A stretch of 64,000 nt of DNA from Clavaria fumosa (lineage: Eukaryota > Basidiomycota > Agaricomycetes > Agaricales > Clavariaceae), in the NCBI GenBank assembly GCA_951802425.1, contig OX637794.1, positions 4,402,001-4,466,000 on the forward strand, written 5' to 3'. Position numbers and translations under genes: made by a program. Below the pieces are notes generated by a model, which worked only from the letters and a program-made list of their open reading frames with translations, searched no databases and was not told the origin of the DNA. Positions within the stretch are counted from its first letter, which is position 1. Every line of letters starts with the position of its first letter. This document shows, one piece after another, positions 19,028-58,307 of this stretch.

Positions 19028-19032
19028 CCAGG

Positions 19033-31522: not shown

Positions 31523-32812
31523 GCACCCCCTTCAGCACACCCACCCCCTATCCAAAAGGCCTAGCCGATTTTGACTGATGCCCTTTTTATGGGCCCAGCC
31601 AATCGTCGGCCGAGATATAGCTTTATAGGCTTGGCCAATCAACTTGATATACCAAAATCCTGCCAGGCATACAGGGATCCCATGGTAATGATGATACCCT
31701 TTCAAAAGGGCTGGCCAACACCCATTTTAGGAACCAGTGTAAAGGGTCTGAAGCACCCTATTCAAACATTTCTCTCACTTACATGACAAATTAGATCAAA
31801 AAGCTGGGGATAAAGCATATGCACAAGATTAGGAAGCAAAGATCAGATGTGCTATTTGATAGACATGTAAATTACAAGGTCATCTGCATCATTTGAGACT
31901 CCTTATCATCTGAGACTCCTCCATGACAACTTAACATAGTTGGGTGAGATGAAAACAAATATGCCTTCCAATAGGTCTTCAAAGGGTAGAAGCAAATGTA
32001 CCAATCGAATATGCAATGGTGCCATTATAAACTAGAGTGAAATGTGGTTGTCAACTGAGTCAGGATATTCTTTGGAAAAGGATGGGCCTTAATATCCTTT
32101 CTGAAGAGTATTCAAATCCACTTTGAATACGTGTTCTAAAGGAGAATGTATTGTTATTGTTCAAATATTCTTGCAATGTAGAAGTTGTGCATGTGAGTCT
32201 GTTATCACACCTTGTGATTATATCATTCTGTGGCTGTGCCCGGGATCCCGGGTGTGACAGTCACACTGTGACCAACTCTGCATAAGAGTATTCAAATCCA
32301 CTTTGAATATGTGTTCTAAAGAAGAGGAGAATGTATTAGAATTGTTCAGGATGAGCCTTTGTACATAAAAATGATCCATTGTGGTCTAGAATTAAATTGA
32401 GGAAGTGATGCAAGGCAGTATATAATCTGATATTCCTTATAAAGAGACAAACCATTATAAAAGGACCCACATATGTGGTTCAATGGGGCACACTCCACCT
32501 TCAACAATCCAGTGGGAATAATGAAGGAGGATATTATTATCAGATATTGCTTATAAAGGTATGAATCTTCTGAACAACATGATGCATCTAATAACAAGAC
32601 TCAAATATGCTTTCTGATAGGCACAGGTTCTTCAATGATCTAATGCAAAGCTGACTGATTCAGGAAGTGGATCATTATCTGAAATTCCTTAGAAAGGGCC
32701 AAACTATAGGCACCACAAAAGGACAGATTGCAAAGAATTATTAGGACCTAGTGAGACATCATGCAGATTGATATGCACTACAAATGACTGTCACCAGTGT
32801 CAAGGATGATTT

Positions 32813-34921
32813 TCAGTGCTTCACCCTTGGTCGCAGTACCTGCTTCTTGGCATCCATGGAAGCCCTCTCTCTAGCCCTGGTCCTATATTGCTTAGACCTC
32901 TCCTCCTCCTCTTCATCATGGTATACCCTTTTCCTCTTGGGCAAGCTGGACCCTGCCTCCTTGTGGATCTGAACTGCCATATGAGCAACAAGGCCATGAA
33001 CATCTCTATGCACACCCACATCATCCCACATCCCTTGTTCTCCTGTCCAAAATTCCATTATCTGTACTGTATTTATGCTGGACTGGAAAATTCTCACCTG
33101 GATGTTGCCTGTCATGGTCACCTTCTAACCCATTCCCCTCAATACCATCACCCCTTTGCATATCCACCTGCTTGCTCAGACAGGATTCTTCTGCATCACT
33201 ATCAGGGGGAACAGAAGCCTCAACCCTATCATCATTATCCCCGTCATAGATGCACCCCGAATCACTGTCTGACTCATCTGAGCCAATGTCCCCACTATGT
33301 GCATTTCAAATGTGCATTGATGATGATGATGATGATGATAATGATGATATGAGAACACTCACTCAGTACTGATATGGACAGGCTGGACCTCTCATTCTTT
33401 CCCCTTCTTGAGGGAGAGCCTCTTCACCTCTTTGTCAGATGACAATGATGGCTCTTGTTCAGGTTGCTGGTGATAGTTGACTAGATGCCTTGATGGCTTC
33501 CCTCTCTGGTGCTGTGGGAGAACATATTGAAACTGTAATATTTTCTGGCCCAAAGTCTGTCGGTGATGCAGGAAATCACAGAGCCTTCTGACATCGACAT
33601 ATTGCATTTTTGAAGGCTCGCAAATTTGCATTCTCTCTGGAAGGTATTCATGAGGAATAAACTTGTGTGGAGCATCAGCTATCAGTTGCCAAGGGACAGC
33701 AACCTTCTTGTTTTTTGTTGTATTGCCTACATGTTGGAAGTAACTTGTCAGACTTGGACTATTGAGCAAGACAGACTCACGATAAGTGATAGTAAAAAAT
33801 GACTGCAAAATTTCTTTGAGTTGTGCGAGTGGTAGGTTGAGTTCCAAAGGAAGAATGGGCCATCCCTGATGATCTGTTAGCAAATCCCATGGCACACTAA
33901 TATCTCTTCCTTTCCTTGATAGCATCTCCTCTTCATCAACAAAAGGCTTCCTTTGTAACTCATCTGAAATCCTGTCAGTACTTCCCCAACCTTGGCTTCA
34001 CATCATTTTCTCACCATTCCATGTCTCAGCCAAATATTTATCCCACTCCTCCCACACCTCACAACCAACTTTGTGAAATTGTACCTTGAACCCACTAGTC
34101 ACAGGTCCAGGGGTCTGAATCCTGGAGCATGTATACAGAGAATTAATCTGATGGACCAGTGGGCATGCAATTGAGACTCACTTTGCCTTCTTTATATTCC
34201 CTTTCTCATCTTGCCAGCCAGTCAACATAAATAATTCAACACCCATCTGCTCCTTTGCAAAACGGGCAAACTTCAGGGCCTCATGCATAAATTTGCGAGA
34301 AGCCAATCTCCAAGCAACATTTCAGCCATTCTACTGGTTGAGAAAGGTAAATTAAAATACTCACTCTCTCTGCACAGGAACTGGGACAGGCTCCCTATTC
34401 CATTTCTCCACCAACCCCATGTATTTCTGATGCTCCTCTTGTGTTAGCTCTTGACAAATCTCAGTCCTAGCATGACGATATGAGCTGAGGGAACTGGACT
34501 GATCCCCTCTCAGCATTTGACAACTCCTGGGCCCTGGCATTGATAATCCCCTTCTTGCACTGCTCCACAACACACTGGAGGGTCCACCTCTGTCGTTTGC
34601 TGAACTGAAGGCCTTGGTTGCCATCATCTTCTGAACCAGAAGACTCCTCCCCTCCACTGACAGCCCTGCAGTTATTGTGGAGCCAATTGCGAATTTTCTA
34701 TGAACAGACAAACATCAAATCAACTCAGGAGACACATAAAATGCATAGGTTACGGTGCTAAGATCCTCTGGGACACATTTGTTGTCCTGCTCAGCTGAAT
34801 CCTTGATTTTCGCTTTGATTTGCTTGACAATTTCGAGGCGGTCTTTTGAGTTTGCCTGTCTGTAGGCTACAAGACTTTCTGTGAGTATTTTGGTATACTC
34901 TGGGGTCGTCCACCGTGTCAT
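32813..34921 (-). CDS. KDZ-associated protein of unknown function, left copy
   Basis: Multi-exon gene reading outward in the left inverted repeat. Start ATG at 34921 (MTRWTTPEYTKILTESLVAY). Recognisable blocks: RWTLQCVVEQCKKGI, EICQELTQEEHQKYMGLVEKW, MGVELFMLTGWQDEKGN, VPWDLLTDHQGWPILP, LNLPLAQLKEILQSFFTITY, VPWQLIADAPHKFIPHEYLP then MQICEPSKM. An acidic and basic tail ends at 32813. The pattern (a WTT N-terminus, a CAREV-like middle and an IPxEYLP block) is one I associate with proteins found next to KDZ transposases in mushroom genomes; no function is established. Introns are about 50-60 bases. A +1 shift near 34490 may be an unresolved splice or a lesion shared by both copies. Confidence 0.75.
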
Positions 34922-34999
34922 TTTCTTTGCTAGCCTAACTGATAAAGCAGTGGCGTTGTTGGGAAGCGAGAAGTGGTGTGTCACGTGAGAAAATAACTT

Positions 35000-35100
35000 G
35001 GCTCACGTGAGTCACTTGTCACACATTGTGACTGTGACTTGCTGAGGCTGTGCCTGGGACCCCTGGTGTGACAGTCACTATGTGACCGTAACTCTCCATA
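35000..35100. promoter_or_regulatory. Subterminal repeat beside left inverted-repeat gene
   Basis: Contains CTCACGTGAG, TCACACATTGTGAC, GGCTGTGCCTGGGACCC and GTGTGACAGTCAC, a diverged copy of the repeat also found near 32230-32275, 39643-39700, 53931-53980, 54240-54300, 54736-54830 and 57545-57630. It lies just upstream of the ATG at 34921. Candidate promoter element or transposase-binding site. Confidence 0.55.
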
Positions 35101-35315
35101 ACAATATGCAAAATGTCCTTTGAGTATGTGAGCCTTGTGTATTTTTTTAATGTACGAAATTCCACAGCAGTCACATCTCACAGCCATTACGAACTGTTAG
35201 TTTCTTTCAAAAAAAGTAAATGCATATATACATCAAGCAAGGGTTCCGATGACTCAGTCGGTGCTTCCTAGTACATGTGCTCTATTCTATGTCTAATCAA
35301 AATCAATGGCTAGGG

Positions 35316-38300
35316 TCAGGCATTGAAACCGCGCCTCTGTCTCACACGGACCATCGATTCCATGTCTGAATTATCTGTTGTATTGATTAGAAAATCTGCT
35401 GCGTCTAGATGAAAGTATATAATGAAACACATACCATCATGCGGAGAGAGGGGCCTCTTAGAACGTATTGTCCCCAACTCAGAACGGTCATCTCCTGCAT
35501 CACTGTCCTCTTGCTCTTCTTCAGAGACCTGTTCATAAATTGGATCATCCAGCAAATCTTCCAGCTCCGTCCAAACCTGAGTATTGTCGCGGGGAAATAT
35601 GTGGAAGTCAGGGCCATCCCAGGAGAACCAATTACCAGCACTGGTATCGTCATGGAGCAACTTCTGGAAGGCATCCAGAAGGTCTTGCCAGTCTTTCCGA
35701 AGGTGCTCAAGCACTGCTGCAATCACCTGCTGTGCAGTGATTGTGAGTGGTGCCTTTTTCTCCCACCTTTTCATGTAAGAACAAAGTGCTGCGCCAAACT
35801 GGATGAGCAATTTGTAGAAGAGATATGATGGGTTCACCCCTTGACCACCAATCTCAAGAATGTATCATTCGATGAACCAGCTCTGGAAGATGCGGTATCG
35901 CCACATCGCAACATTTTGCTCTTCAAGTATTTCAGGTGGTGGTTTCCTCCCATGTGACTTGAGGCCAAGGGCTATCACAAATTCAAGCATGTTCCCCACC
36001 ATGATAATATCGAGGAGTCCATGTCTTGTTGTGACATCGGGGATGTGGGCAAGTGCCTCACCAAATGCTAAAACAATTATCAGATGACATACATAATGAT
36101 GGAGAGATTCTACCATATTTGGATTTCCCCGTGACATAGTGCTCAACCCAGACCGCCATCATCTTGCACAAGTATGTGGTTGTCGATTGGTGCTCTTGAT
36201 TGGTGATTATCGGGTTGAGCACAAACATATGCAGGGCTGAAGCACAGCTGCGAGCTATCGTGGATGCGGAATAAAAGTGCCGGCCGTAAACAATCGTCGG
36301 CTCTGGGCTAAGCACAAAATGGAGTGTGCCAGGACGCATGAAACTGTAGGATTGTCAGTAAATATTGCACGTGATAATTATTGCAACTCACAAAATATCT
36401 CCTGTCTTCAGGTGTATAGCCTCCGCACATAAAAATTCTTTTCCAGTGCTACAATCACCCCAACTGAGGGGGAAGGCATGCGTCGAAAAGATATTGCCGC
36501 GATAGTCGTAGTCTTCTGCATCTGTACGGCGGCGCATCACCACCCACCACTTTGACCCTGACATGACAGTCGAAACAACTGCAAGGCCAACATCATCAAT
36601 ATGGGGCATGCTGATGGTCCCACCAGTGGCTGCAATGCCCCAGATCAGGTCGTCTTTGTCAGGTTGGTTTGCGAAGCCATCCATCTTTTGGGTTTGGTGG
36701 CGTGCCCACTCATGAGTTGCAAAAGCGCTGATTTAGTTATTGTTTCAGTTGTCATGTGTCAGAGCAACAAATGGGACATGCCTGAATCGAGGTGGTGGAG
36801 GGAGGCTGAGGCTTCCCATCGGGAAGTCAAGGCAATTCAAAATCCATTGTTTTGTAACATCACGTGTTGACTCCAGCAAATCGTGGAGTGTCCCAGTGCG
36901 GAGCAGATTTGCATCAGAGTGCTTTCGCATCTCTGCAACTATAGAAGCTGACTTAGATGAATCAACTTGAAAAATATTTTAGACTCACCTTGGAACACAC
37001 ATTCCTGATGTAGAGGAGCCAACGTCGATAATCCCTCCTCATCAAAGTCGAGGGTTGAAATTGGCATATTCGTAATAAGAATATGTTGACAACGGAACAC
37101 CTCTTGAATTTCCAGACTAGTCATCTTCATGAACTCAGTCCAGGTTGTGACGAATATCACAGACGCATCTGGATGGAATGTTCGCGACCTGGCAGTTGGA
37201 AGACGATGCTTAGGGACCTGATTGACATATTCCTCTTCGACCATTTCTATTATGTCCGTTAGGACAGGATACTCGCGGAATGCCTGCTTTATTTTGAGAG
37301 ATATCCATGAAAAACAGTGTTAAACGTACTGAATCTGAAGTCGTGAAATGCTCATAGATGGTTGGCTCAGTATCAGGATTTGCATCATACATTTTGACTT
37401 TGATGGAGTGATTCTCCATCTGCATTGTGTGAATTAAAATATTACGCAGTAGTTGAGATTTTGCTTACCTTGGGGAGGGGTAAAGAGGAGAGCTCCTCCA
37501 CTTTCTCTACGTGCTAAATAAAACAATTCAATCAGCATTTGTTGGGGTGTCAATATAAGTCATACCTTGACCATCAGGTCAATGATACTCCGAATTGGCT
37601 TCAAGGCAGCCTTTCTACCCTGGTGGATGGGTCCAGGTGGCTTTGTCTTGCCTTGGCCCACATGTGTATCCTGTGTTGCCTTTCCTTTCCCTTTCCTTGT
37701 CACAGCTTCCTCATCGGGGATCAACTCGTCATCCTTATTCTCCTGGTCTGATTCATGCCGGAGTCTCTTTGCTGCCCTTCGCATTGGACGATGAACCTCG
37801 TGTTTCAGTGGCTTCTCCAATGCACCTTCAGCTTCTTCAGCGTCTTGAGTGTCTGAGAGCTCCTGCTGGTCGTATTCGAGCATGGGGAAAATTGGTGTTT
37901 GCTCAATCAGACCTGCTTCATGAGCAGAAGTGACGCCCTGGGGATCTGCTTCCAGAGCAGGAATGATGTCTTCGACATGCTCCGGGGGACCAGCTTCAGG
38001 AGCAATGATGGGCTCTGCTTCTTCTTCGATGGAACATGGTTCGGGAGCTGTGATGACACGTTGGACTTGCCCTTTCTTTGCAGTCAGTTTCATTCAGGGA
38101 TGAAAAGATCAAAATAACATACGGGATGGAGAATACCAATCCATCTGAATTTCTGGCCCCTTGAACTGCACCTGAAGGTCTTGAAACTCTGTAAGGAAGC
38201 CATTCAGGGCCGCTGATGAGTCGCCGGTGATGCTTGTTTGCATCAGAGCTCTCCACAGTGCTTTCTCCGTCAATCCCAAAAACGCAGGCTTTTCGTTACC

Positions 38301-39574
38301 CAAGTACATTGCAGTCTATATTGCCTGTTTCGTAAACACAATCTGACATAAAAATGAGGCACTCACCGATACCTAGAAACTTTGTCGCAGTTGTGACTGG
38401 TCAAATGCCCTTGTTGTCAGGGCAAAAAGGGGACTGACAGAGAGGCAGTAGTGGAAGAGTCTGCACACATGCTTGAAGAGCATCGGGCCAAGACGTGGAT
38501 CTGTGAGCCTTGAGACAAGGCTGGAAGACAGAGGAAGACCCTCGCTTTCTAATTGTCTGTGTGAAAAAACTTAGTTGGAAATTTGGATAAGGCAAACTAT
38601 GTTGCTCTCACTCATTTAAAATATTGACCCAGTCCTGGGTCGACTCAGCAAAACCTGTGGCATTATTCTGAGAGAATGTTAGTTATAATTCCCAACAAAA
38701 AAATTGCTGGACACAAACCAAGCCAAACCAAGTGATGGCAAATGCCATCATCTCAAAGTTTAGAAGTACAGACTTGACCTGGATGTCTCGCATTCGTTCC
38801 AGGCCCCCACCAAGGAACTTTACAGCTTTGATCAGTTGTTCCTGCTTTGGCGAAGGGTGTGCAGGAAGGGAGGTGCCAAAATACACCGCAGAATTCGTCA
38901 ATGGATCCATGGCTTGAAAGCTTTGAGACCCCTGTGCTTTTTCAATGGGCTTGAGCCAATCCTTAATGGTACCAATATACTATGAAAGATAAGAAACTTG
39001 GAATAAGGGAAAGAAATTTAACGCACATCGCTAAACTTCTTGGGCATCTTAGGCAATTCAGATCAAGGCGTTAGCTGGGATGGAGGAGCCTCAACAATCG
39101 AAAATGCCAAGCGGTCCAAAAGGGCATGACGAAAAACGAAATGAGCAGCGCTCATGAGAGCCGATGTGTCGTGTTTCTCCCATTTCTCTCTGCTAACCAA
39201 GTGACTGTATGATGCCCGGAAGTATTCGTTGACTGCTCTTTCCTTCTTCAGTGCCGTGCTTCCAGGTCCAAAACGATCCAAAGACTGAGCGATCGACTAG
39301 ACGATTAGCTTTGATAAGCAAATAATCCTAAGTTTATAAGTTTGAATTGAACCTTGCAGAGGGAAACTTGCTCCTCTCCTAAGTTGTGGTGCTGTCCCAG
39401 CCAAGTAGCAATGTTGCTTTCCAGAAGTCCAGGCTTCATGATGATGTCGGTCAACCAAGGATAGTTTTGGAAAACAGCACTCGTGCGGACTGTTTGGGGA
39501 TCGAAGATGGTGAGCAATGCTGAAGTCGACATTTTGCTTGTCAAGGAAGAGGATTTGTTCATCGAAGTAGACAT
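35316..39574 (-). CDS. JmjC-like 2-oxoglutarate dioxygenase carried by KDZ element
   Basis: Multi-exon gene, ATG at 39574 (MSTSMNKSSSLTSKMS), stop at 35316-35318 after VRQRRGFNA. The N-terminal half has helical repeats (FSIVEAPPSQL, MDPLTNSAVYFGTSLP, LLNFEMMAFAITWFG), then a Glu/Pro-rich and basic linker (38093-37560) with KRLRHESDQENKDDE. The catalytic part reads WILNCLDFPMGSLSLPPPPR, GIAATGGTISMPHIDDVGLA and GSKWWVVMRRR, then MRPGTLHFVLSPEPTIVYGR. The HxD pair is His at 36601-36603 and Asp at 36595-36597; the distal His is at 36319-36321. This is the iron-binding triad of a JmjC/cupin fold. The C-terminus is helical and acidic. A TGA at 39063-39065 (Arg expected) and ambiguous stops near 36740 suggest partial decay. 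The substrate, a histone or other protein, is unknown. Confidence 0.72.
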
Positions 39575-39642
39575 TGAAAGTGTGGTTTGGGAGTGAGTTC
39601 AAGTAACAAGGATTCAAGTACTAAAGAAGGATGAAATTGACG

Positions 39643-42507: not shown

Positions 42508-42519
42508 GGTCACATGACC
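42508..42519. promoter_or_regulatory. GGTCACATGACC palindrome 33 bases before the H3-mimic ATG
   Basis: Perfect 12-base palindrome identical to the two in each gypsy-3 LTR. The TET/JBP gene has a related GTCATGTGACC at about 45162-45172. E-box core CACATG. Candidate bHLH-type site. Confidence 0.5.
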
Positions 42520-42551: not shown

Positions 42552-44129
42552 ATGGCTCGAAACAAACAAACAGCACAGAGAAGTACCAGCGGTCGCGCTC
42601 TCCACATTGTCCCAGGGTCAGCTGTATCCACAAGAACGACAGCTACTTCTACAGCGCTGGTTAGACCAGAATTTGCTAGTGAGGGTGAAAATGTGAGTAT
42701 TCGCCTTTGCTCTGAGCACTGGTACAAAACAATAAACTTTTTCCACAGTTCTGCTACATGTGCCTTAATGGTGGTTTTCTTTTTGTCTGTGATTACTGTG
42801 CTCGGGTGCTATGCACAAAATGCCTCACTGTCCCGACTTCAATCGACACCGAACACCTCAAGTTCATGTGTCTCACCTGCCATGCTCGGTCTTTCAAAGG
42901 ACCCACCCTCAGCCCATATTATGTGAGCATTGATTTACTTATTCTGTTTCATTCTCTTATCTTTGCATTGTAGGGGTTCTATTTGACAAAGGGCCTCGAC
43001 ATCATCGACGGGAAGCCCGACACGGCAAGATTGTGACCAGCGTTTGCACAACCTCTCAAGGTAGTAGGCAATTTTCAAATGACTGCAAATTCTCATGTCA
43101 GCAACAAGGGACTACTTGTCTTGCACTTTCTCCTCAAAGGAATGGATCATGCTGGAATGCCGGCAAGACTTCTCACCGACTATATGCGGTCGTATCTTGG
43201 AGATGAGGCGTTGCAGTATGAAGAGGTTGTGTTCGATCTTGCCAATGACATCCTTATCAATTTGCATGCAGAGTACATGAAGAGCTTGGTGCATAAGATT
43301 CAGTATGAGCTTTCTGTTTCATATCATATTGTACTAACCATTTTCACAGAAATAAACATCCCCGTGTCGTAATTTTTATTACGAATCATTCTCATGATGA
43401 CACTGGCGACCTCTTTCTTTTACCTGGGTTATGCACCCAGGTCAAACCCGTGAGTTTGTTTACAATGCATCTGCCTCCAGCTAATTTGAAGCCTTAGTTT
43501 CTCGATGTCCTCCTCCCACCTGCCCACTTGACATTCCTCAAAGGGGCAGAGGTCACATTGTGGATGATGTCCTGTGGAACATTAGTCAAGAACTTCCGTA
43601 GTTATTCAGAGCTAGCAGAGGCAACCAAGCGGTAAGACAATAACTAGCACTCTCAATTTGCTAATTAATCAAAATTTCCAGCCTTTTGATTTCGGATGTC
43701 ATCGCATTCACAGCCGCTGAGCTGCAACCTTGCCTTACGGCAGGGTTTGTAGTTGGCTATGCCCAGCAAGTTCTGGTGGAGGGATTCCCTCTGGAGGACT
43801 GTCTCCGGAGGCTCCTACCTGCGACATCAGCAATTTGTCGCCACACCGACATTGTCCATCTCCAGGCAAGAGAGGGACAAATACGTGGTGCTCATTATAT
43901 GTGGGTTCACCCTGAGCTTCGCCCTTGGGGAAATCAGCTCCCAGTGCAGTGCAAGGCTTGTGGCTGCATCTGCTCCTGGGTCTCATCTACTGGTAATGCT
44001 GGGGCGAGAATATTTGCTTGTCGAAATCCGCGGTGCACCAACAAACTTATCTTCAATGCACCTGAGGAGAAAGTATGGCTGGGAGGCAAAATTTTTGGAG
44101 GGCGCTGGCTAATTATAAATCAACAGTAG
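42552..44129 (+). CDS. Zinc-finger protein with histone H3-tail-like N-terminus
   Basis: ATG at 42552. Exon 1 is 42552-42692 and introns are 42693-42748 (gtgagt...cacag) and about 42921-42973. The first residues, MARNKQTAQRSTSGRAL, follow the histone H3 tail residue by residue: Ala1, Arg2, Lys4, Gln5, Thr6, Ala7, Ser10, Thr11, Gly13 and Ala15 are kept, Lys9 is Arg and Arg8 is Gln. Exon 2 is a PHD-like zinc finger: FCYMCLNGGFLFVCDYCARV, LCTKCLTVP, FMCLTCH. Further conserved blocks: SNKGLLVLHFLLKGMDHAGM, YEEVVFDLAND, VVIFITNHSHDDTGDLF, ISDVIAFTAAELQPCLTAGF, HPELRPWGNQLPVQC, KACGCICSW, and FACRNPRCTN (second Cys cluster). One in-frame TGA at 43034-43036 (Arg expected) probably inactivates this copy. 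I recall similar proteins beside other mushroom KDZ transposons; function unknown. Mimicry of H3 is inferred. Confidence 0.8.
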
Positions 44130-45222: not shown

Positions 45223-46702
45223 ATGGCCAAAAGGAAGCATCAAGAGACTGACTTATCTGGCTCAAACAAGAGGACCAATTATGCTCCTTGTGATGCGTAT
45301 GTATCGTCTAACTGAGCTGAGTTGATGTCTAATGCCCACCCAAGGCCATCTACTTTGAAAGGCACCATGTGGAGCCTCTTATGCACTATGATACGCAAGC
45401 ACATAACTCATAAAATGCAAAAGCCACTCAAGACAAGGCAAGTCATCAATTTTTAATCCTGTTAAGCCAGCTAAAATTGAAGGAAGGTTGAAAATTTGGG
45501 GCGAACTTGAGGAATTGAGAGTTGCCATGGATTCCAGCAACGAGAGTAATGCTGACGACCAACCTGTGACTCAAGAAGAACTACAACGTGTAGTTCTAAC
45601 TGTGGCCTATGCCCTCTTCAACCCAAGTGCGTTAGCTTAAATGACTTGCAACAATCAGCTGAACACTTTGACCATTCAGTTCAAACGGAATGGGACATAG
45701 ATCGGTTTGCAGACAGTGTGAAACATATCAATCTCATAGCCAAACGCAGCAATAATTTCGATGCAGCCTTGGTGAAATTCAGCAAGTATTTCAAGCAGCC
45801 TCAAGACCTCGGTGTTCAAGAGGAACCCTGCACAATAATTGATAAGCACGGTTGTATCTTGCTGTGGGCTCTGCCTGGAATTCTTTCTAGTGCTAGAGTG
45901 GTGAGATAAGGCAATCAAATTTGAACCATATTTTCTAACCAATTTACAGGAGCAGTACAACAGAGGGTGTGAGCACATTAGCAAGCATCTGGACAGAGAC
46001 TTGCCAAGTAATGCTGGGCATACTACGGGATTTGTCGAACCTGAAGGCGGAGGTCGTTTTGGTGCCGGAATCAAGTCCTTCTCTCCTGGCTGGTTTATGC
46101 AAGGCCAGCAACAGGTAATGCTGTCACATAACTACCTTGTTTTACTGTCTCAATGTCAACAGCTCAGTGATAAACTGCATGCTTCGACCAGCTTGCAGAC
46201 TGCATATGGTTCCTCCTTCATTCAAGGAATCGCACATGCAGAGAAGCTGTGCAATTCAATTATGGCCTTGGTCGCACCAGAACAATATGACTTTGGGAGC
46301 TCAGCCATTGACCAAGTGCAATCTGGGGTGGCAATGGCAAAAACATACAAGAATGTGCAGCTTTGGCCCTCAATCTTTATGGCAATGGAAGTCATCGTGA
46401 ACAGGAAGACTCCTGCACATCGCGACAAGGGAGGCTGCCTGGCTCACTACAATCTTTTGGTTAGTGCTGGAACTCACAAGCAGGCATACATGACACTCCA
46501 GGAACTTGGTGGTCAATTTGCCTACAATCCTGGAACTGTCCTTGTATTTGTGGGTAAAGTTTTTCTGCATGAAGTGATGGATTGGGAGGGTGGCGAACAA
46601 TTGTGCATTGCTCATTTCATGAAAGATTCTGTTCATGACCGTCTACAGATACCACGACCAACTTACCCAACTCAAAATACGTACATGCAATTGTTGACCT
46701 AG
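45223..46702 (+). CDS. TET/JBP-family DNA dioxygenase carried by KDZ element
   Basis: ATG at 45223 (MAKRKHQETDLSGSNKRT). Introns include 45297-45344 and 46115-46162 (48 bases each); one or two further junctions near 45440 and 45625 are unresolved. The catalytic domain is in the last exon: WPSIFMAMEVIVNRKTPAHR, HRDKGG, FAYNPGTVLVFVGKVFLHEV and CIAHFMKDSVHDRL. Iron ligands are His 46418-46420, Asp 46424-46426 and His 46568-46570. TET/JBP enzymes oxidise 5-methylcytosine or thymine in DNA using 2-oxoglutarate, and fungal KDZ elements are known to carry them. Ten residues after the distal His, where these oxygenases use Arg to hold 2-oxoglutarate, this protein has Gln (46598-46600, CAA). That may abolish activity. 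It converges with the KDZ transposase gene, about 110 bases apart. Confidence 0.85.
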
Positions 46703-46814
46703 GTACATTTATATAGAAACTGGTCACTTCATCACTGTTGCTGAACTCCAGGAAAAGAGCTTCTGTCTGGGTGAAATTGCAGTGCTTTGTATCCCCACAA
46801 TTGATGTGGCTAGC

Positions 46815-49800
46815 TAAGATTTGACTTGTGGTAGACTCCAAATATCACCCCAGGCAGTAGATGCAGCCTCCTTCATCCACTTCCATACCATAGCCTGCTT
46901 CTCAGCATAGCTTCTGTGACCATGCAAGCACTGTGTTTCTGCCCAGACTCTCCTCCTCTCCCATTCCCTTTGTTGGTGTGAATACCATGCCAATGCCCAT
47001 GTCATTTCGTGTCTCACCAATAACATCTCTTCTTCCCACCTGTCATATCGAGCCTTTGCTCTCAGCCAGTTCACCCTCAATACTTATTTCAGTCAGCATA
47101 GAAACATATGAGGAAGCTAACATATCGAAGAACTCACTTTCATTCATCAAAGGGTTCCCGGCATTCCCCCCAGTCCCAATCCTCCAGAACCAGGGTAATG
47201 CATCATTTTGCTGCCCAATCCGGTTTTCCTCTGCCACATCTGTGTTAACTTTCAAGTCCGTGTCTTGGAGAACTTGAAACTTCTCAAGTACATGTGCAGG
47301 TGCTCCCAGGCTTATCAAGGCAGACCTAGCACACTTGTACCTCCCAGTATACTCCTTGATCTTGTCATTCACTTGGAGGAGTTCTGAGCGGCTCCTGGTC
47401 TTGCTTGCCTGGGTTTTGGATTTTCGAATTCGTATCTTGTAAAGCAACGACTTGTGTCTGATTGCCAGTCTGAGCCCTTCAAGTGACTCCTCTGCTTGTA
47501 CCACCTGCAGCTGTATTTCTTGATCCACAAATTTTTCCCACCCATTTTTCAAGCAGAAGTCGTGGCCAAACGTAGAAGGCATCCAAAGCCTGTTCTGTAT
47601 GAAATTCTGCTCGTCCATGTCCAGGTCTTCCACGTCACCATCTTGAGGATCATCCTGTGTTTCTTCTCTAGGTCCAGTGTCTTCTGGCATGGTCTCCTGG
47701 TGTTGGTCATCCCACTCGAAATCTCCCAGAACAGTATAGACTTGTTGGTTGAAATTTTCAATTTTGGATTGAAGTGCATTCTGTTTATCAATAATGCTTT
47801 GCTTCTGAGCTGCTGTGAGTCTCCTCTTCCGGGTTAGGTCAATTGAACATCTGGAGGCTCATTGGCATGTGTGTAGGCTTAGCATCTTGGATGTCACTTA
47901 CTGAATATGTTCCAGATCCATGCCTTGAGTCAGGAATGATGTAATCCCCGAAGGTACTCCATTTTCTTTTTCCCTAGCTGAGAGAGTTAGCCTGATATCT
48001 GCAAGAGTTGGTGCTTCATATTGAAATTTTCAGATTTCTGTCTCTAGTGATGAAGTGAGGAATATCAACTCACTCTTTTCCAGTTGTATATCGTATATTT
48101 TGAGGGCTTCCCCTCGATTTTGCAGAGCAATCTGCTCTAAATTCATCCATTCTTCTCTTGCTTCTGATCCAATCCCTTCATTCAAATCATTGAATGCAAT
48201 CTTGGTTTGTCAAAGACCTTCTGTTGCAGCATTGTACTTCGCCAGGAGGGCCTTCACTAGATTGCATATTCAGTTATCCCAAATTTGCTTAGAAAATTTT
48301 GATACCCACCAATACCCACTGTTTTCTTCCAGTTTGAATCTCGCATGTAGTCGTCTAATATTTCGTGCCAATGTGCCTTGCTCATGGCCCGTATGCTGCT
48401 GGAGACCTTGTTCAGGTTTGACCACAGAGTCTCCAAAATCTCTCCATCTTGTTGGCCAGCACCATGAACAAAGTTCAAGGAGAACAGTGGGAAACAGGAA
48501 CGAATGTGTGCCCCCAAGTGAAATTTACCCACTGCAGGTATGATTGTTGTTGAAGGGTGCACAGACAGATACTGGCTCCCCTGGACCCTCTTGTCGAAAT
48601 TGCGAATCCACTGACAACAGATATCATAGATGACTAAAGTCTCTGTCATCCCTTCTGTCCTATATTTGATAGCTTGGCAAATTGCATAGTCAATGTTGAT
48701 GTGACTGGAAGAAAAAGCAACAAGTATTTGCAACCAAATTCAAATATACAGACATTTTCAGCTCACCGCTTGCCCTTCTGGAAATCAACCACAGAATGTG
48801 GCATGAAACACCCATGCCATGAGCAGGCACATGCCCCTATTCCTGTGGCTTCCAGGTGACTTGAGTGAGCATTTGACTGGCTTATAGCCCTGTGATTTGA
48901 GCATTTTGATTTCTGTTGTAGGAGTGAATCTCAGGTGACCAGTCCAAGTTAGACACCTACATCTCGAATCTCTAAGCCCTCAGAGAGGTGATGTTGATAA
49001 TTCACCTCCTCTACAATATATGCCTCTCCATTTGCTAACCTAACATCTTTCTCTGCTCTTCGCATTTTCAAGTGTTCTGCTGAGAAATTTCCATCAACAA
49101 CCAGGGATCTGCGGAAAAGCCATCTGGCATTTCTTTATCAGGGTTCACATGCATTCAATGAAAACAAGACTTACTGATCTGGTTGACTTTGCCAGTTGTT
49201 AGGAAGATTAATGCCAGGTTGAGGGCAAGCAGGACAAAACAGTGCTAGGTCCCCATTTCCTGTTTTCCTATCCAAGTCATGCCCAAAACCAAATCGTTTT
49301 CTATTTGTCAAGTCTCGCCATTGACGAGATACTCTCATTAGTTCACGGTATCGATCCTAATGCCAGCAGCTTGTCAATACAAATGGAGGGAAAAGGAGAG
49401 GAGGATACTGACTGGTACAGTGTCTGGGAAAGCATTAGAGGTAAATCTCTTTAGTTTGGAGTAAAAGGCGCCTGCTGAGGTTTTACACTCCATAGCCTCA
49501 ATATGGAAGTGACCAAGGACTTCAAATGTGAACACTGTTTGAGGTTTCGTATAGCTGGCAGGAAACAGACGGTGTTGAAGCAGCTGTATATGGTGGGAAG
49601 GAGCATTTGAGCATTGGCAGTAATAGATGCTCCATCGGCACACTCCATTTGAGTGTACAACTAGAAGCAGACTTGCACCTGGCCTATCCAAATTAGGTTC
49701 ATTTCTGGTATCTTGCTCCCATTGATCCTTCTCCCTGTACCCTTCCTCTTTGAATTCTGGACACGGTGAGCCTTGATGCCCTAAGTGAATCGCCAGTCCA

Positions 49801-50200
49801 ACATGTAGGAGATCAGATGGCAGGAAACAAACTCCATTCCAAACATCAATGGAATGGAATGGGATATTGATGTGAGATTTGGCGCAGCATGAGGAGCAAG
49901 TTGCAGGCCGATAGAAACAATCACGGCATCGAAACTTGAAGTTGTTCTGATTGCAGACCTGACAAATTTTGGAAGGGGGTGGAGCTTCTAATTCCAAGAT
50001 TTCCCTCAGGTAAGCTGTTCTTAAAGGAAGCCAATCCTCAAGGAATTCATTCTGAGTCTGAATGTGTACATTTTCAGATACTTCAGCATACAGAGAACAA
50101 CTTGGAGTCCTCACCTTTCCTTGCTTTTTCTTATGTGAAATCTGTTGGACATCAGAATCCAGTATGCACTCAGGGTCACCATCTGCATTAAATGTAAAGG
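46815..50200 (-). pseudogene. KDZ transposase with CxC2 zinc domain
   Basis: Reads from about 50200 down to 46815 in several exons. N-terminal part: VRTPSCSLYAEVSENV, FLEDWLPLRTAYLREILELE. CxC2 cysteine cluster: ICQVCNQNNFKFRCRDCF, ATCSSCCAKSHINIPFH, GVCFLPSDLLHVGLAIHLGH. KDZ core: LALFCPACPQPGINLP, TGIGACACSWHGCFMPHS, VVDFQKGKR, LVIYDICCQWIRNFDKRVQG, IPAVGKFHLGAHIRSCF, FVHGAGQQDGEILETLWSNL. C-terminal helical region: WLRAKARYDRWEEEMLLVRH and GHRSYAEKQAMVWKWMKEA. This is the defining transposase of Kyakuja/Dileera/Zisupton elements. Several in-frame stops (for example near 48890-48960 and 48000) and frame changes indicate inactivation. Upstream exons, if any, are cut off by the LTR-like segment at 50.2-51.5 kb; a possible first exon is 51941-51558. 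Confidence 0.88.
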
Positions 50201-50223
50201 GCAGAGTCTGTTTGGCCTTGCTA

Positions 50224-51528
50224 TGTAACGGGAAGCTGGGCCGAAGGCTCGGAAGTGCTTTCCGTCAGGTGATCAGGTGCCGGGATTAGGTTAGTCCCGA
50301 GTGCCGGAATGAGAGGGTTGAAAGCTGTCTGGTCGAGTGGATCGAACTGGGATATTATTCTGTCGCTGGGTCTCCCGGGGCCTAGGAAAGAGCGAAGCAG
50401 GGTGGCTCTGGCTCTGTACTCAGAGTCGTTGGCTTCGATAACCAGCTGTCTGAGGTTGGCGTAGTTGCTACTTCAGGCCAGGAGGAGAGGGGGTATCTCT
50501 CGTCAGCAGTAGGGAAAGCCAGTGTGATTTCACCAAAGTACGATAAGGTGATAAGGACAAGTGAACAACGCTAAGGGGCTTCCCATGTCACTGCACCCCT
50601 TATATACCTCAGGGGTGCTGCGGGTTCCTGCGGCGCAGTCCATCGTCCGCAGCCCAAGGATGCCATCCATCCACCACGGCGTACTCTTCCGCAAGCCTGC
50701 TCAGTCCGCAGCTGCCTGCTACTGCTCTTCGACGCAGCTGCCCTTGTGGGGCCGCGCAGCCCGCAGCTTGCCGAATGCTGCCCTACACTCTTATCTTGAA
50801 CGTCATCGCCTTTCGCTTATCGGCCCATGTGCTGCTCTGCAGTCTTCCACATGGCACGGCTTATCTCCACATGCTCCTTCACCCGTCATGTGCTCCTGTG
50901 TGACGGTCCTTTCCCACCGCCTCGCTTATCTTCCGGCTCTTATCCGTCCTTTGTAGCATATAAGGAGGGCCTGTACCGCTTCTCTTCCCCCATCCTCTGT
51001 TATGTGCTGGGGCCCTCACAAGCTTAAATTCCTCCCCTCCTCCAATGTCTTCCAACAAGTCGCCCCCCTCGTACTCTCGTGTGCGGCCTTCCACTGGGCC
51101 ATTCAGAGGGGAGCCGACGACCTCCTTATTCTTACCGTTGCCCGACGATGCTACGCTTGCGGCCATCCTGGCCATTTTGTGTCGGGATGCCCTCGAGTCG
51201 TCTGCCCAGGCAACCTTATCTGTGACCTACTCGAGGACCCCCACAGTACCGTCTTTTCTTCCATTTCTCATTCGCTTTGCTGATTTCTTTCTTGTAGAAT
51301 GGGATTGCACTCCCCCTACTCAGTGGACCTCTCCCACCTCCTACTCCGGGTGGAACTCCACTCCTCCGCCCTCGTCCCCTCCGTCAGCCCCTGCGATGGC
51401 TACGGTGGCTCTACCAGACGTTGAGGGCGAGTATGTCCAGGCTGGGGAGTCTCCTTCTCGATCGGTGGACGAGGATAGGCTCTGGGTCTAGTGGTCCAAA
51501 CGTCGAAGTTTCCGTTTGACGTAATACA
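50224..51528. mobile_element. LTR-like segment inside the KDZ transposase gene
   Basis: Differs in composition from its surroundings. It begins TGTAACGGGAAGCTGG and ends GACGTAATACA, giving a TGTA...TACA pair. Contains a TATA-like TTATATACCTC (about 50600) and GCATATAAGGAGG (about 50957). It encodes a zinc-knuckle gene whose protein matches the one embedded in the gypsy-2 LTRs. I could not find a clean target duplication, so the ends are provisional. It probably is a solo LTR of a relative of gypsy-2. Confidence 0.6.
51044..51491 (+). CDS. Zinc-knuckle protein, diverged relative of the gypsy-2 LTR gene
   Basis: First exon from an ATG at about 51044-51045 or an in-frame start near 51002. The knuckle is CYACGHPGHFVSGC followed by ICDLLEDPHSTV, closely matching CFACGDPSHLVKDC and ICDLLEDPHGEL of the LTR gene. 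It also shares LSCAAFHW versus LSCNTFHW upstream. A probable intron ends at tttcttgtag (51297). The second exon has WDCTPPTQWTSPTSYSGW and an acidic tail ending at 51491. Protein similarity exceeds nucleotide similarity, which supports real coding. Role presumably nucleic-acid binding. Confidence 0.55.
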
Positions 51529-51557
51529 TAGTTTCTGGTTTCGGATTGGTTCTTGTA

Positions 51558-51941
51558 TTACTTAGGTGCTTCGATCCCATAAACCAATCCCCAATGGCCA
51601 TCAACAGCGAGGAGCATCTCCTCACTCTTGATTGCCATTGGTACTTTGGTTTTCCTGCCTCTAGTGTTGCGGTTGTCCTTAGTTGTGTTGCCTTCATTGT
51701 AGTTTGCCTTGGTTACATAATCGACTTTGTCATTCTTCCCATGACAGCTATGGGGTGTTTGGGGGAGTAGGGAATCATTGGAGCAGGTCCCAGACCAAAG
51801 CTTGCTATGTAGAACGTTGTATGGTTGAGCAGGTTGCTTGTAGACATTTCGAGACTTCAAAAAGGATTTCTGCAGTCGTTTATTGTAAATTGAAACAAAT
51901 TCAACCTCCTGGGCATGTTCTTTTCGTTTAGTGATTGGCAT
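51558..51941 (-). CDS. Possible first exon of the KDZ transposase gene
   Basis: Frame from ATG at 51941 (MPITKRKEHAQEVEFVSIYN) with basic N-terminus and TRGRKTKVPMAIKSEEML. It lies upstream of the transposase on the same strand and is separated from it by the LTR-like segment. No domain. 51960-52075 upstream contains a duplicated GTGTTGTGTCATGTGATTGG and CAACTTCTATGTTGCAA, resembling the other gene-proximal repeats. Confidence 0.35.
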   Translation of the reverse strand: MPITKRKEHAQEVEFVSIYNKRLQKSFLKSRNVYKQPAQPYNVLHSKLWSGTCSNDSLLPQTPHSCHGKNDKVDYVTKANYNEGNTTKDNRNTRGRKTKVPMAIKSEEMLLAVDGHWGLVYGIEAPK

Positions 51942-52149
51942 GGCGGAGGTTGCAGTGGACAAAGTGTTGTGTCATGTGATTGGGCTGACTGAAAAACTCA
52001 CATATGCAAAGTGTTGTGTCATGTGATTGGGCTGACTGAAAAACTCACATATGCAACTTCTATGTTGCAAAGTGTTAGAGTAATACAAATACAAGATACA
52101 ATAAAATTCCAGTGGCAGTAGAATTACAAGAAGAAAGGCCTGTAAATGG

Positions 52150-53220
52150 CAATCAGACTATCCTTTGTTTTTCATGCTCAAACCAACTCTTCTCTGCAAC
52201 GGTGAGGATCTCTTCTTGTAGCCTTGTCCGAAGCCCACCAATCCTCCAGCACTTCCATGCTCGTTCAATGTCTTGTTGAGACATCAAGGGGTTCTAAGGG
52301 ATGTTGAAATGACATTAGAAGAAGAAAAGAAATATCCAATTACCAGCACCACATCCATTAATCTGTCACCTTCATGCAACCACAGCCTTGCAAAATGGAT
52401 CGCATATATGCCACAATCATCTCCGTTTTTCTGTTTTGGAACCTAAGCAAGAACATATGAAAATATATGAAGCACCCTTTTTTGCACAATTTGCCACAAA
52501 CCTTTGGTTGGATAACCTTTGGGTCCTTGGTGTACTTTAGGCCCTGTTGATGCCCAAGCTCTCGGAAGAGGTCTTGGATTGCCTTTGCGTCTTTGGAATG
52601 CACCCTGTCATGAAAAAAGCTGTCAAGTATGACAATGGTACTGTAAAGATGTTAGTACCAAAAATATCGCAAGAAATGGTACACTCACCATCCCCAGTTA
52701 CCATCTGGCTGATCGACTAGAAAGCAATGGCCTGGGTTTGCCACAATTATGGTAAACCAATGCTTCCTGTAATAGGTATAGCATCCCCATAAATTCCAAC
52801 AAGATATCAGCCACGTACAGTTCCTCGCTGAACCCAGGAATAATCCAGTATCTGCATTTGTGTGCAGATTCTGGAAGCCATGCGATAATATCTCTGGTGC
52901 CATCCTTTCTTCTAATAAATGATCAGCTTTCACCCACATCATTAAGGGGTGAAATTACCTCAGTACTGGAAGGAAATATGTATTTGCGAGCCATATTCCA
53001 GATGCCCCTGTTTCCAATTCTTTGTATGTCTCTCTGTCCACCTTGAGCATTGTTAACAATTGAACATTGGTTGACGTACTGAAGTGCAAAGTTGACAATA
53101 TCTCCTCCTATCCATTGACCAGCCTTGAGTTGGTCAAGTTCAATATCTTTCAATTGAACTGGACCTAGAAGCATATGTGTGCTCCCAACACTACAATGAG
53201 AAAAATATGTCAAATATATT
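52150..53220 (-). CDS. Ulp1-like (C48) cysteine protease carried by KDZ element
   Basis: Multi-exon minus-strand gene. Substrate-pocket region: MLLGPVQLKDIELDQLKAGQ, WIGGDIVNFALQYVN, then FPSSTEVISPLND. Catalytic residues in order: His in YYRKHWFTIIVANP (52760-52762), Asp in CFLVDQPDGNWGW (52712-52714) and Cys in VPKQKNGDDCGIYAIHFARL (Cys codon 52413-52415). This H-D-C order and the Q-x-N-G-x-D-C-G motif are those of Ulp1/SENP proteases that cleave SUMO or related proteins. It is bracketed by the KDZ transposase and the right inverted repeat and reads in the same direction as the transposase. The 5' limit is uncertain and may extend to about 53950. Fidelity of the exon joins was not fully checked. 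Confidence 0.75.
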
Positions 53221-53930: not shown

Positions 53931-54300
53931 ACAGTCACACTATGTGACATCTGTTATCACAGCATCAGCACAGCCACACTAACTTTATGAGTGGGTAATC
54001 ATTTGGAAAATACAGCGTTGTTCACAACCCCTGTGGACCAGCATGACTATCTGACATTGTCTGGTACCACAATTGTGAGCCATAGTCGTATCACAAATTT
54101 ATGCAAAGATATTCAAGCAAAGGTTCTGCTGACATTAGTCAGCTTTTCCTAGTTTCTACAATAATAGCAATACATTCTCCTCTTACCCAGAACACACATA
54201 TTCAAAGAGCATTTGGATATTCTGATGCCAAGCTATGGTAACAGTGTGAGTCACACCCGTAATCCTGGGCATAGCCACAACAAGTCACAGTCACATCTCC
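53931..54300. promoter_or_regulatory. Two subterminal-type repeats upstream of Ulp1-like gene
   Basis: CAGTCACACTATGTGACATC, then TTATCACAGC, CACAGCCACAC (53931-53980) and GTGAGTCACACCCGTAATCC, GGGCATAGCCACAAC, GTCACAGTCAC (54240-54300). Each is preceded or followed by TTCTACAATAATAGCAATAC and ACACATATTCAAAGAG blocks. They match the subterminal repeats of the inverted repeats. Confidence 0.55.
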
Positions 54301-54643
54301 CAACACACAATTCACACGAGCAAAGCTATGTTATTTGCATCAAAATGTGCCATTGCTTCACTTCAGAAGCAATATCGTATATATATAATGCAGAGAAGGC
54401 TTTGGATCGAGAGGACTGGAGTTCACGCGAGAGACGTAGTGTATTCAGTAGTGTAATAAAGATCACAAGGATAGCACATACCTGGAGTTCACGCGAGAGA
54501 CGTGAAGCTCCAGATACAGCGGTACGAAAAATCCTCAGGGCCCTGAGGCCGCTGCACTGGCAAGCACGTAACCAATAGGAGTTTAAACTAAACGTACTAG
54601 TCCTCTTTCAGATAGACCGTTGGCCGAACCTTCGTCATCACTC
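54301..54643. other. Core spacer before the right inverted repeat
   Basis: Contains a direct repeat CTGGAGTTCACGCGAGAGACGT at about 54417 and 54481. An open frame of about 120 codons spans it, but I see no domain and do not call a gene. Confidence 0.4.
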
Positions 54644-54908
54644 TGGCTGTAAGATGTGACTGCTGTGGAATTTCATACATTAAAAAAATACACAAGGCTC
54701 ACATATTCAAAGGACATTTTGCATATTGTTATGGAGAGTTACGGTCACAGTGTAACTGTCACACCCAGGGTCCCGGGCACAGCCTCAGCAAGTCACAGTT
54801 ACAATGTGTGACAAGTGACTCACGTGAGCCACGTTATTTTCTCACGTGACACACCACTTCTTGCTTCCCAACAACGCCACTGCTTTATCAGTTAGGCTAG
54901 CAAAGAAA

Positions 54909-57017
54909 ATGACATGTTGGACGACCCCAGAGTATACCAAAATACTCACAGAAAGTCTTGTAGCCTACAGACAGGCAAACTCAAAAGACCGCCTCGAAAT
55001 TGTCAAGCAAATCAAAGCGAAAATCAAGGATTCAACTGAGCAGGACAACAAATGTGTCCCAGAGGATCTTAGCACCGTAACCTATGCATTTTATGTGTCT
55101 CCTGAGTTGATTTGATGTTTGTCTGTTCATAGAAAATTCGCAATTGGCTCCACAATAACTGCAGGGCTGTCAGTGGAGGGGAGGAGTCTTCTGGTTCAGA
55201 AGATGATGGCAACCAAGGCCTTCAGTTCAGCAAACGACAGAGGTGGACCCTCCAGTGTGTTGTGGAGCAGTGCAAGAAGGGGATTATCAATGCCAGGGCC
55301 CAGGAGTTGTCAAATGCTGAGAGGGGATCAGTCCAGTTCCCTCAGCTCATATCGTCATGCTAGGACTGAGATTTGTCAAGAGCTAACACAAGAGGAGCAT
55401 CAGAAATACATGGGGTTGGTGGAGAAATGGAATAGGGAGCCTGTCCCAGTTCCTGTGCAGAGAGAGTGAGTATTTTAATTTACCTTTCTCAACCAGTAGA
55501 ATGGCTGAAATGTTGCTTGGAGATTGGCTTCTCGCAAATTTATGCATGAGGCCCTGAAGTTTGCCCGTTTTGCAAAGGAGCAGATGGGTGTTGAATTATT
55601 TATGTTGACTGGCTGGCAAGATGAGAAAGGGAATATAAAGAAGGCAAAGTGAGTCTCAATTGCATGCCCACTGGTCCATCAGATTAATTCTCTGTATACA
55701 TGCTCCAGGATTCAGACCCCTGGACCTGTGACTAGTGGGTTCAAGGTACAATTTCACAAAGTTGGTTGTGAGGTGTGGGAGGAGTGGGATAAATATTTGG
55801 CTGAGACATGGAATGGTGAGAAAATGATGTGAAGCCAAGGTTGGGGAAGTACTGACAGGATTTCAGATGAGTTACAAAGGAAGCCTTTTGTTGATGAAGA
55901 GGAGATGCTATCAAGGAAAGGAAGAGATATTAGTGTGCCATGGGATTTGCTAACAGATCATCAGGGATGGCCCATTCTTCCTTTGGAACTCAACCTACCA
56001 CTCGCACAACTCAAAGAAATTTTGCAGTCATTTTTTACTATCACTTATCGTGAGTCTGTCTTGCTCAATAGTCCAAGTCTGACAAGTTACTTCCAACATG
56101 TAGGCAATACAACAAAAAACAAGAAGGTTGCTGTCCCTTGGCAACTGATAGCTGATGCTCCACACAAGTTTATTCCTCATGAATACCTTCCAGAGAGAAT
56201 GCAAATTTGCGAGCCTTCAAAAATGCAATATGTCGATGTCAGAAGGCTCTGTGATTTCCTGCATCACCGACAGACTTTGGGCCAGAAAATATTACAGTTT
56301 CAATATGTTCTCCCACAGCACCAGAGAGGGAAGCCATCAAGGCATCTAGTCAACTATCACCAGCAACCTGAACAAGAGCCATCATTGTCATCTGACAAAG
56401 AGGTGAAGAGGCTCTCCCTCAAGAAGGGGAAAGAATGAGAGGTCCAGCCTGTCCATATCAGTACTGAGTGAGTGTTCTCATATCATCATTATCATCATCA
56501 TCATCATCATCAATGCACATTTGAAATGCACATAGTGGGGACATTGGCTCAGATGAGTCAGACAGTGATTCGGGGTGCATCTATGACAGGGATAATGATG
56601 ATAGGGTTGAGGCTTCTGTTCCCCCTGATAGTGATGCAGAAGAATCCTGTCTGAGCAAGCAGGTGGATATGCGAAGGGGTGATGGTATTGAGGGGAATGG
56701 GTTAGAAGGTGACCATGACAGGCAACATCCAGGTGAGAATTTTCCAGTCCAGCATAAATACAATACAGATAATGGAATTTTGGACAGGAGAACAAGGGAT
56801 GTGGGATGATGTGGGTGTGCATAGAGATGTTCATGGCCTTGTTGCTCATATGGCAGTTCAGATCCACAAGGAGGCAGGGTCCAGCTTGCCCAAGAGGAAA
56901 AGGGTATACCATGATGAAGAGGAGGAGGAGAGGTCTAAGCAATATAGGACCAGGGCTAGAGAGAGGGCTTCCATGGATGCCAAGAAGCGGGTACTGCGAC
57001 CAAGGGTGAAGCACTGA
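54909..57017 (+). CDS. KDZ-associated protein of unknown function, right copy
   Basis: Second copy, reading outward on the plus strand. Start ATG 54909. First intron 55077-55132 (gtaacc...catag) joins EDLST to KIRNWLHNNC. A later intron near 55649-55708 ends at ctccag before the IQTPGPVTSG block. Long exon 55905-56438 holds the VPWQLIADAP...IPHEYLP region. Final exon ends at 57017 (RARERASMDAKKRVLRPRVKH). It encodes almost the same protein as the left copy, so the element has two doses of this gene, kept alike by repeat-to-repeat conversion or by youth. Confidence 0.75.
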
Positions 57018-57544
57018 AAATCATCCTTGACACTGGTGACAGTCATTTGTAGTGCATATCAATCTGCATGATGTCTCACTAGGTCCTAATAATTCTTTGC
57101 AATCTGTCCTTTTGTGGTGCCTATAGTTTGGCCCTTTCTAAGGAATTTCAGATAATGATCCACTTCCTGAATCAGTCAGCTTTGCATTACATCATTGAAG
57201 AACCTGTGCCTATCAGAAAGCATATTTGAGTCTTGTTATTAGATGCATCATGCTGTTCAGAAGATTCATACCTTTATAAGCAATATCTGATAATAATATC
57301 CTCCTTCATTATTCCCACTAGATTGTTGAAGGTGGAGTGTGCCCCATTGAACCACATATGTGGGTCCTTTTATAATGGTTTGTCTCTTTATAAGGAATAT
57401 CAGATTATATACTGCTTTGCATCACTTCCTCAATTTAATTCTAGACCACAATGGATCATTTTTATGTACAAAGGCTCATCCTGAACAATTCTAATACATT
57501 CTCCTCTTCTTTAGAACACATATTCAAAGTGGATTTGAATACTC

Positions 57545-57640
57545 TTATGCAGAGCTGGTCACAGTGTGACTGTCACACCCGGGATCCCAGGCACAGCCAC
57601 AGAATGATATAATCACAAGGTGTGATAACAGACTCACATG
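57545..57640. promoter_or_regulatory. Outer subterminal repeat of right inverted repeat
   Basis: GGTCACAGTGTGACTGTCAC, CCCGGGATCCCAGG, CACAGCCACAG, TCACAAGGTGTGATA and ACTCACATGCACAACTTC. It is the best preserved copy of the gene-proximal repeat. The mirror copy is at 32185-32275. Likely transposase recognition sequence, by analogy with subterminal repeats of other large transposons. Confidence 0.5.
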
Positions 57641-58307
57641 CACAACTTCTACATTGCAAGAATATTTGAACAATAACAATACATTCTCCTTTAGAACACG
57701 TATTCAAAGTGGATTTGAATACTCTTCAGAAAGGATATTAAGGCCCATCCTTTTCCAAAGAATATCCTGACTCAGTTGACAACCACATTTCACTCTAGTT
57801 TATAATGGCTCCATTGCATATTCGATTGGTACATTTGCTTCTACCCTTTGAAGACCTATTGGAAGGCATATTTGTTTTCATCTCACCCAACTATGTTAAG
57901 TTGTCATGGAGGAGTCTCAGATGATAAGGAGTCTCAAATGATGCAGATGACCTTGTAATTTACATGTCTATCAAATAGCACATCTGATCTTTGCTTCCTA
58001 ATCTTGTGCATATGCTTTATCCCCAGCTTTTTGATCTAATTTGTCATGTAAGTGAGAGAAATGTTTGAATAGGGTGCTTCAGACCCTTTACACTGGTTCC
58101 TAAAATGGTTGTTGGCCAGCCCTTTTGAAAGGGTATCATCATTACCATGGGATCCCTGTATGCCTGGCAGGATTTTGGTATATCAAGTTGATCGGCCAAG
58201 CCTATGAAGCTATATCTCGGCCGACGATCGGCTGGGCCCATAAAAAGGGCATCAGTCAAAATCGGCTAGGCCTTTTGGATAGGGGGTGGGTGTGCTGAAG
58301 GGGGTGC

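Follow-up and report, generated by a model that had tools for sequence, protein, structure and literature searches.

A giant KDZ transposon of Clavaria fumosa with gene-bearing inverted repeats and a chromatin-directed gene set

We analyzed a 64,000-nt stretch of the Clavaria fumosa genome (GCA_951802425.1, OX637794.1 positions 4,402,001-4,466,000, forward strand; hereafter, the window) and found that its positions 31524-58306 are one bounded mobile element. This unit of 26.8 kb has CA..TG ends, 7-bp target duplications, and many dispersed copies. It carries six gene types: a CxC2-KDZ transposase, a TET/JBP dioxygenase, a Ulp1-like protease, a JmjC-like gene, a gene whose product joins an H3-tail-like start to a PHD-type finger (H3/PHD), and a gene borne by the terminal repeats. 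We consider it fairly probable that the unit is a giant TET-bearing DNA transposon of the Kyakuja (KDZ) type whose accessory genes oppose host silencing. The gene set may help the element escape the cell's gene silencing, a role that we infer.

The boundaries of the element are set by its repeats and its target site. The arms at 31523-35186 and 54644-58307 pair without gaps over 3664 nt, with 30 mismatches (99.18% identity). We judged the outermost base pair to be a chance match from the duplicated target because the match to the majority of the other full-length arms begins at base 2, and the element proper spans 31524-58306 (26,783 nt). A first-pass annotation of this DNA had described two repeats of exactly 3664 bases each; this is correct as the length of the pairing, but the repeats of the element are 3663 nt long and the mismatches lead us to reject exact identity. 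The termini read 5'-CACCCCC...GGGGGTG-3' and are of the CA..TG type. Seven copies were read, namely the window copy (A) and six other two-armed copies (B-G), and both ends were seen in six of the seven, G being truncated at the left. The terminal features in the window are as follows:

31517..31523, no strand: left target duplication of 7 bp, CTTGTCG
31524..35186, plus strand: left terminal inverted repeat (TIR), 3663 nt
54644..58306, minus strand: right TIR, 3663 nt, 30 mismatches to the left repeat
58307..58313, no strand: right target duplication, CTTGTTG, differing from the left one at a single base

The insertion target was a gypsy reading frame (ALVDSGCTN). An uninterrupted gypsy copy beside locus L029 aligns with the left flank at 1287-990 and with the right flank at 994-695; the two alignments abut, and this copy therefore represents the empty site. 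The earlier proposals of a single bounded unit, and of ends defined by the interrupted gypsy, are both borne out. Direct repeats of ~295 bp (97.6% identical) at 28715-29008 and 61602-61895 flank the interrupted gypsy and are probably its long terminal repeats (LTRs).

The genome searched comprised 48.8 Mb in 17 contigs. Using the left arm as a query, with the best 40 of 199 candidates scored, we obtained 69 matches among those candidates, including single arms and fragments. They paired into at least 13 two-armed copies on six contigs with differing flanks, and the repeat length and identity common to these copies are far beyond chance. All seven of the read copies are colinear at ~98% identity. 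The 7-bp target duplication is exact at B (TGGTTGC), at D (GCGCAGT), and at E (GGATGCA), and that of the window copy agrees at six of seven bases. The two arms of a copy diverge least in D and E (0.08%), followed by B (0.16%); the other copies show 0.63-2.0%. The low values suggest recent movement.

By protein matches, all six gene types are placed between the arms in 13 of 13 two-armed copies (seven of which were read); the sequence Ulp1, KDZ, TET, H3/PHD, JmjC-like is found either this way round or reversed. The extra genes are therefore not separate insertions, and the same set is also kept in a diverged family (described below). The first-pass annotation had placed the six gene types in one unit and called for a genome search for copies with the same ends; the search recovered the full set in each of the two-armed copies, and among elements with these ends we saw neither of the outcomes that it had named as refuting, copies holding only the transposase and extra genes with boundaries of their own. 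Nested insertions do occur, of 1.5 kb in the window copy and 6.9 kb in copy F, and would favor reading the unit as a composite of separate nested insertions or as an assembly artifact. Against this stand the identity of ends and of gene order among 13 copies that lie on six contigs and differ in their flanks, the target duplications, and the empty site in the gypsy copy beside L029, and we reject this explanation as very improbable.

Several observations concern individual copies. Part of the Ulp1 gene is deleted in copy F (L021-L024), whose TET gene holds the 6.9-kb insertion, the copy's model having open frames of 732 and 1274 amino acids (aa). The immediate flanks of copy C (L012-L014, G000:C1:4638392-4664362) are inverted repeats of 64 bp (98.4%) instead of a direct duplication. 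At window position 42513, ~0.6 kb with 7-bp repeated edges is present in the six other read copies and absent from the window copy. Locus L028 (666-9486, G000:C10) is a near-perfect 8.8-kb palindrome with the same 769-nt tips and an exact 7-bp duplication (CCTCCCA); none of the six element proteins matched it at E 0.01, and it is probably a nonautonomous derivative mobilized in trans.

The genes of the window copy are listed below.

32813..34921, minus strand: left copy of the repeat-borne gene; the model from copy B gives ~555 aa and, applied to the window copy, shows one stop and a 1-nt insertion
35282..39439, minus strand: JmjC-like gene; 1058 aa in the copy-D model, by which the window copy has three stops
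42552..44129, plus strand: H3-tail-like/PHD gene; 441 aa, one stop in the window copy
45223..46702, plus strand: TET/JBP dioxygenase gene; reading frame open in this copy, model uncertain in its first two exons
46814..51941, minus strand: CxC2-KDZ transposase gene; 934 aa in copy B
50225..51747 (approximate), no strand: insertion in the first transposase exon, unique to the window copy among the seven read
52153..53174, minus strand: gene for the Ulp1-like (C48) protease of 239 aa; reading frame open in this copy
54909..57017, plus strand: right copy of the repeat-borne gene; by the same model, it too has one stop and a 1-nt insertion

Three of the six gene types were recognized by domain searches. 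The KDZ domain (PF18758) matched at 3.7e-52 over profile positions 2-217 of 217, and CxC2 (PF18803) at 9.1e-28 on the open reading frame of the window and at 4.2e-07 on the spliced copy-B model; in the window, the transposase is disrupted by the 1.5-kb insertion and one stop. The TET/JBP gene matched Tet_JBP (PF12851) at 3.3e-17 and two PDB entries, CcTet (7vpn, 2.3e-22) and a 2OGFeDO JBP1/TET oxygenase domain-containing protein (2.6e-22), which by sequence places it with the AG type, the relatives of CcTet. The protease matched Peptidase_C48 (PF02902) at 4.2e-12 and SENP2 at E 0.0048, and its catalytic His, Asp, and Cys are present by eye. The JmjC-like, H3-tail, and repeat-borne proteins had no Pfam match above the curated cut-off, and domain and database searches returned nothing significant for the repeat-borne protein.

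The H3/PHD protein had been described as a zinc-finger protein with an H3-like tail; this description holds and can be sharpened to a fusion of an H3 tail with a PHD-type finger. The layout comprises an H3-tail-like start, the finger, a middle domain with a conserved His and Cys (which may resemble a caspase/CHAT-like fold), and a C-terminal part like a zinc ribbon. Exon 1 in the window starts MARNKQTAQRSTSGRA and the copy B protein starts MARNKQTAQRSTGGRALRIV; the relatives in diverged elements start MARTKQTPKKSTGGRALRV (L035), MARTKQTAKTSTGSPSVRI (L033), and MPRTKQSASRSTGAPCVRV (family Z). In all four aligned members, R2, K4, Q5, S10, and T11 are invariant, as are the eight Cys of the finger. 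Position 9 varies among these members (R, K, T, and R), and on this pattern we rejected a pure H3K9 decoy. A profile of the four matched the PHD fingers of CHD4 (3.6e-10), PHF21A (1.1e-6), and ATRX and AIRE (both 6e-5), with Pfam PHD reaching E 0.023 in one member only. The same profile gave weak matches to histone H3 chains, at E 0.012 to one of 25 residues and at 0.023 or more to the rest. The protein has no histone fold, as the PF00125 matches of the genome fall only at six other places. An H3-like N-terminus in a protein lacking the histone fold marks it, as far as sequence can tell, as a putative H3 mimic. A search with the protein found no relative among 7781 candidates, and the four-row profile found one ENA protein, P0004, which shares its start and finger with family Z.

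H3-tail starts were also located across the genome by DNA pattern. One pattern matched 24 times and a second 40 times (59 distinct loci together), with zero matches to the reversed control in each case. Three loci were excluded: C3:2275108 and C8:1131613, which fall on Pfam histone matches, and C3:4222854, which begins MARSKQTA and has no Pfam histone match. Relative to 150 listed KDZ loci of 185, 42 of the remaining 56 starts lie within 10 kb and 48 of 56 within 25 kb, compared to 6.2% and 14.5% of random positions, for which some contig sizes were guessed. Four kinds of H3-tail start were read through to the PHD finger. In families X and Z, the first-listed H3/PHD-type genes showed no H3-like start in the frames read. 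A second, diverged H3-tail/PHD gene lies next to the first in both families, at ~12362-13990 of L030 in family Z and at ~7900-6000 (minus strand) of L033 in family X.

The gene set extends beyond the window family. Family Z (C9:3012001-3048500, L029-L032) holds all six gene types, including the repeat-borne gene at both ends, of which the right one is shortened beside gypsy sequence. We compared the two families by the ratio of nonsynonymous to synonymous substitution rates (dN/dS), computed with a JmjC-like model in which the segment with the HID motif is treated as an intron. Amino acid identity and dN/dS were 64% and 0.32 for the repeat-borne gene, 56% and 0.22 for Ulp1, 70% and 0.22 for KDZ, and 41% and 0.21 for H3/PHD; TET (49%) and JmjC-like (62%) had saturated dS. 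The six-gene set is under purifying selection between the diverged families. Around 39 KDZ loci listed by a transposase search (best 54 of 719 candidates scored), TET lay within 25 kb of 34, the repeat-borne gene of 33, H3/PHD of 30, Ulp1 of 25, and JmjC-like of 20, compared to 2.6-7.1% of random positions. KDZ matches also occur near contig ends (G000 C1:94-138 kb, C4:88 and 4458-4500 kb, C5:43-86 kb, C12:46-95 kb, and C14:104 kb), with JmjC-like matches at several of these places; they may form a subtelomeric KDZ family.

Giant transposons can carry cargo, and the accessory genes might be captured host genes that ride passively and bring the element no benefit. The mixed dN/dS within the window family would fit this explanation, but purifying selection between families and the repeated co-occurrence of the genes with KDZ disfavor it, and we consider it improbable. 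The suggestion of a mobile epigenetic toolkit made in the first-pass annotation stands insofar as a chromatin-directed gene set is enclosed in a bounded unit; it does not extend to many KDZ loci of other lineages. At 90 of the 150 listed KDZ loci, no H3-tail start lies within 25 kb, and therefore KDZ elements lacking the gene set exist too.

A number of results weigh against a Kyakuja-type transposon whose genes counter silencing. No target duplication was seen in copies C, F, and G among the seven read. The predicted JmjC-like dioxygenase keeps HxD...H ligands, by eye, in the HID motif and the distal His of TLHFV (7/7 read copies and family Z), but its sequence similarity is below significance: E 0.11 to KDM2A, E 0.14 to JmjC_2 (under the cut-off), and E 0.68 with a two-row profile. 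The region has a single database relative, from Dentipellis, in which the metal ligands seem by eye to be missing. A protein search detected no JmjC-like and mostly no Ulp1 genes in family X, where they are absent or too diverged. Within the window family, dN/dS, computed with the same JmjC-like model as between families, ranges from 0.16 to 1.95 on small counts, with no clear constraint. The copies also appear to be methylated despite the TET gene: among the seven read copies, 851 differences were counted at two-letter sites where no more than two copies hold the minor letter, and 465 of them are C>T at CpG; such CpG-to-TpG changes suggest methylation. The observed/expected CpG ratio ranges from 0.29 to 0.53 across the copies and is 0.19 for the left repeat; it is 0.45 for the whole window, whose first 6 kb are also depleted (0.29). 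A simple story of protection also meets the difficulty that, by the gene models, each of the seven read copies lacks an intact version of at least one of the six genes. In the window copy, the transposase, both repeat-borne genes, the JmjC-like gene, and the H3/PHD gene are broken, and TET and Ulp1 are open.

We propose the following mechanism for the antisilencing reading. Movement of the unit via the terminal repeats would depend on the KDZ transposase and its CxC2 zinc domain, perhaps together with the repeat-borne protein. The TET/JBP enzyme would oxidize 5-methylcytosine on element DNA, the JmjC-like protein would take a methyl mark off a histone or another protein, and the Ulp1-like protease would remove SUMO from silencing or repair complexes. 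The H3-tail/PHD protein would offer a free H3-like N-terminus (A/P-R-x-K-Q-T/S, with S10-T11 kept and K9 not kept), which could occupy readers or writers of the H3K4 region or fold onto its own PHD finger as a switch.

The same genes might instead serve transposition itself: the repeat-borne protein would bind the ends, Ulp1 would tune repair after excision, H3/PHD and the JmjC-like protein would steer chromatin targeting, and TET would open methylated ends. The presence of the repeat-borne gene at both ends in the window family and in family Z favors such a role, as does a suggestion, in PMC2836005, that Ulp1 domains act in the transposition of other transposons. However, a TET oxidase, a JmjC-like protein, and an H3-tail start would be poorly explained by DNA cutting and repair alone, and we regard this alternative as unlikely, though the least unlikely of the three weighed here. 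Returning to the antisilencing reading, a more specific form, which we advance tentatively and rate somewhat short of even, is a giant Kyakuja group with a multilayer kit comprising an H3 tail mimic fused to an H3K4-type PHD finger, a 5-methylcytosine oxidase, a demethylase-like protein, and a deSUMOylase, in which long gene-bearing TIRs keep two copies of a further factor.

Kojima 2025 (PMC12730594) describes TET+ Kyakuja of Agaricomycetes with 7-bp duplications and CA..TG ends and proposes that they escape from methylation, so the association of KDZ with TET/JBP was already known, as the first-pass annotation had said. The window element shares the KDZ transposase, a TET/JBP gene of the CcTet kind, the duplication length, and the ends, but differs in its 3.66-kb gene-bearing TIRs and four further gene types; the terms Ulp1, JmjC, and peptidase do not occur in the main text of that article. 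It reports two L. bicolor Kyakuja families without TIRs, a descriptive rather than a defining trait, and the TIRs found here depart from its description, a further point against the Kyakuja assignment. Placement in Kyakuja rather than Zisupton or Dileera is putative and follows from the duplication length, ends, and taxon. In PMC2836005, Ginger1 transposases with Ulp1 and, in one listed Ginger1, PHD, as well as Mutator with Ulp1, are likewise DNA transposons encoding such domains. Those belong to other superfamilies and carry Ulp1 and PHD within the transposase, whereas the window element has separate genes; TET, JmjC-like, and H3-tail genes are unmentioned in the part used. Teratorn (PMC6431247) differs in being a piggyBac joined to a herpesvirus, 41-182 kb long, with 18-bp TIRs and unrelated genes. 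Plant Vandal (MuDR) elements also encode counter-silencing, but through a different, sequence-specific protein in a different superfamily (PMC12730594). TET-bearing Kyakuja are thus already known. For the long gene-bearing TIRs, the extra genes, and the H3 mimic, we found no earlier report in the literature searched, Iyer et al. 2014 lying outside it.

Elsewhere in the window, a 1.8-kb direct repeat pair at 9857-11653 and 17232-19028 (98.3%) is probably a pair of LTRs, and a palindrome of 1.08 kb (97.4%) lies at 7008-8083. Searches of the window for RNA families and tRNAs found none.

If the antisilencing reading is correct, it would widen the picture from transposons with one TET gene to transposons holding a conserved set of chromatin-directed genes, and would add a transposon-encoded H3 tail mimic, with no precedent in the literature searched (again with Iyer et al. 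2014 outside it). Two questions also become testable: which silencing layer is countered by each gene, and why dozens of TET genes are retained in mushroom genomes.

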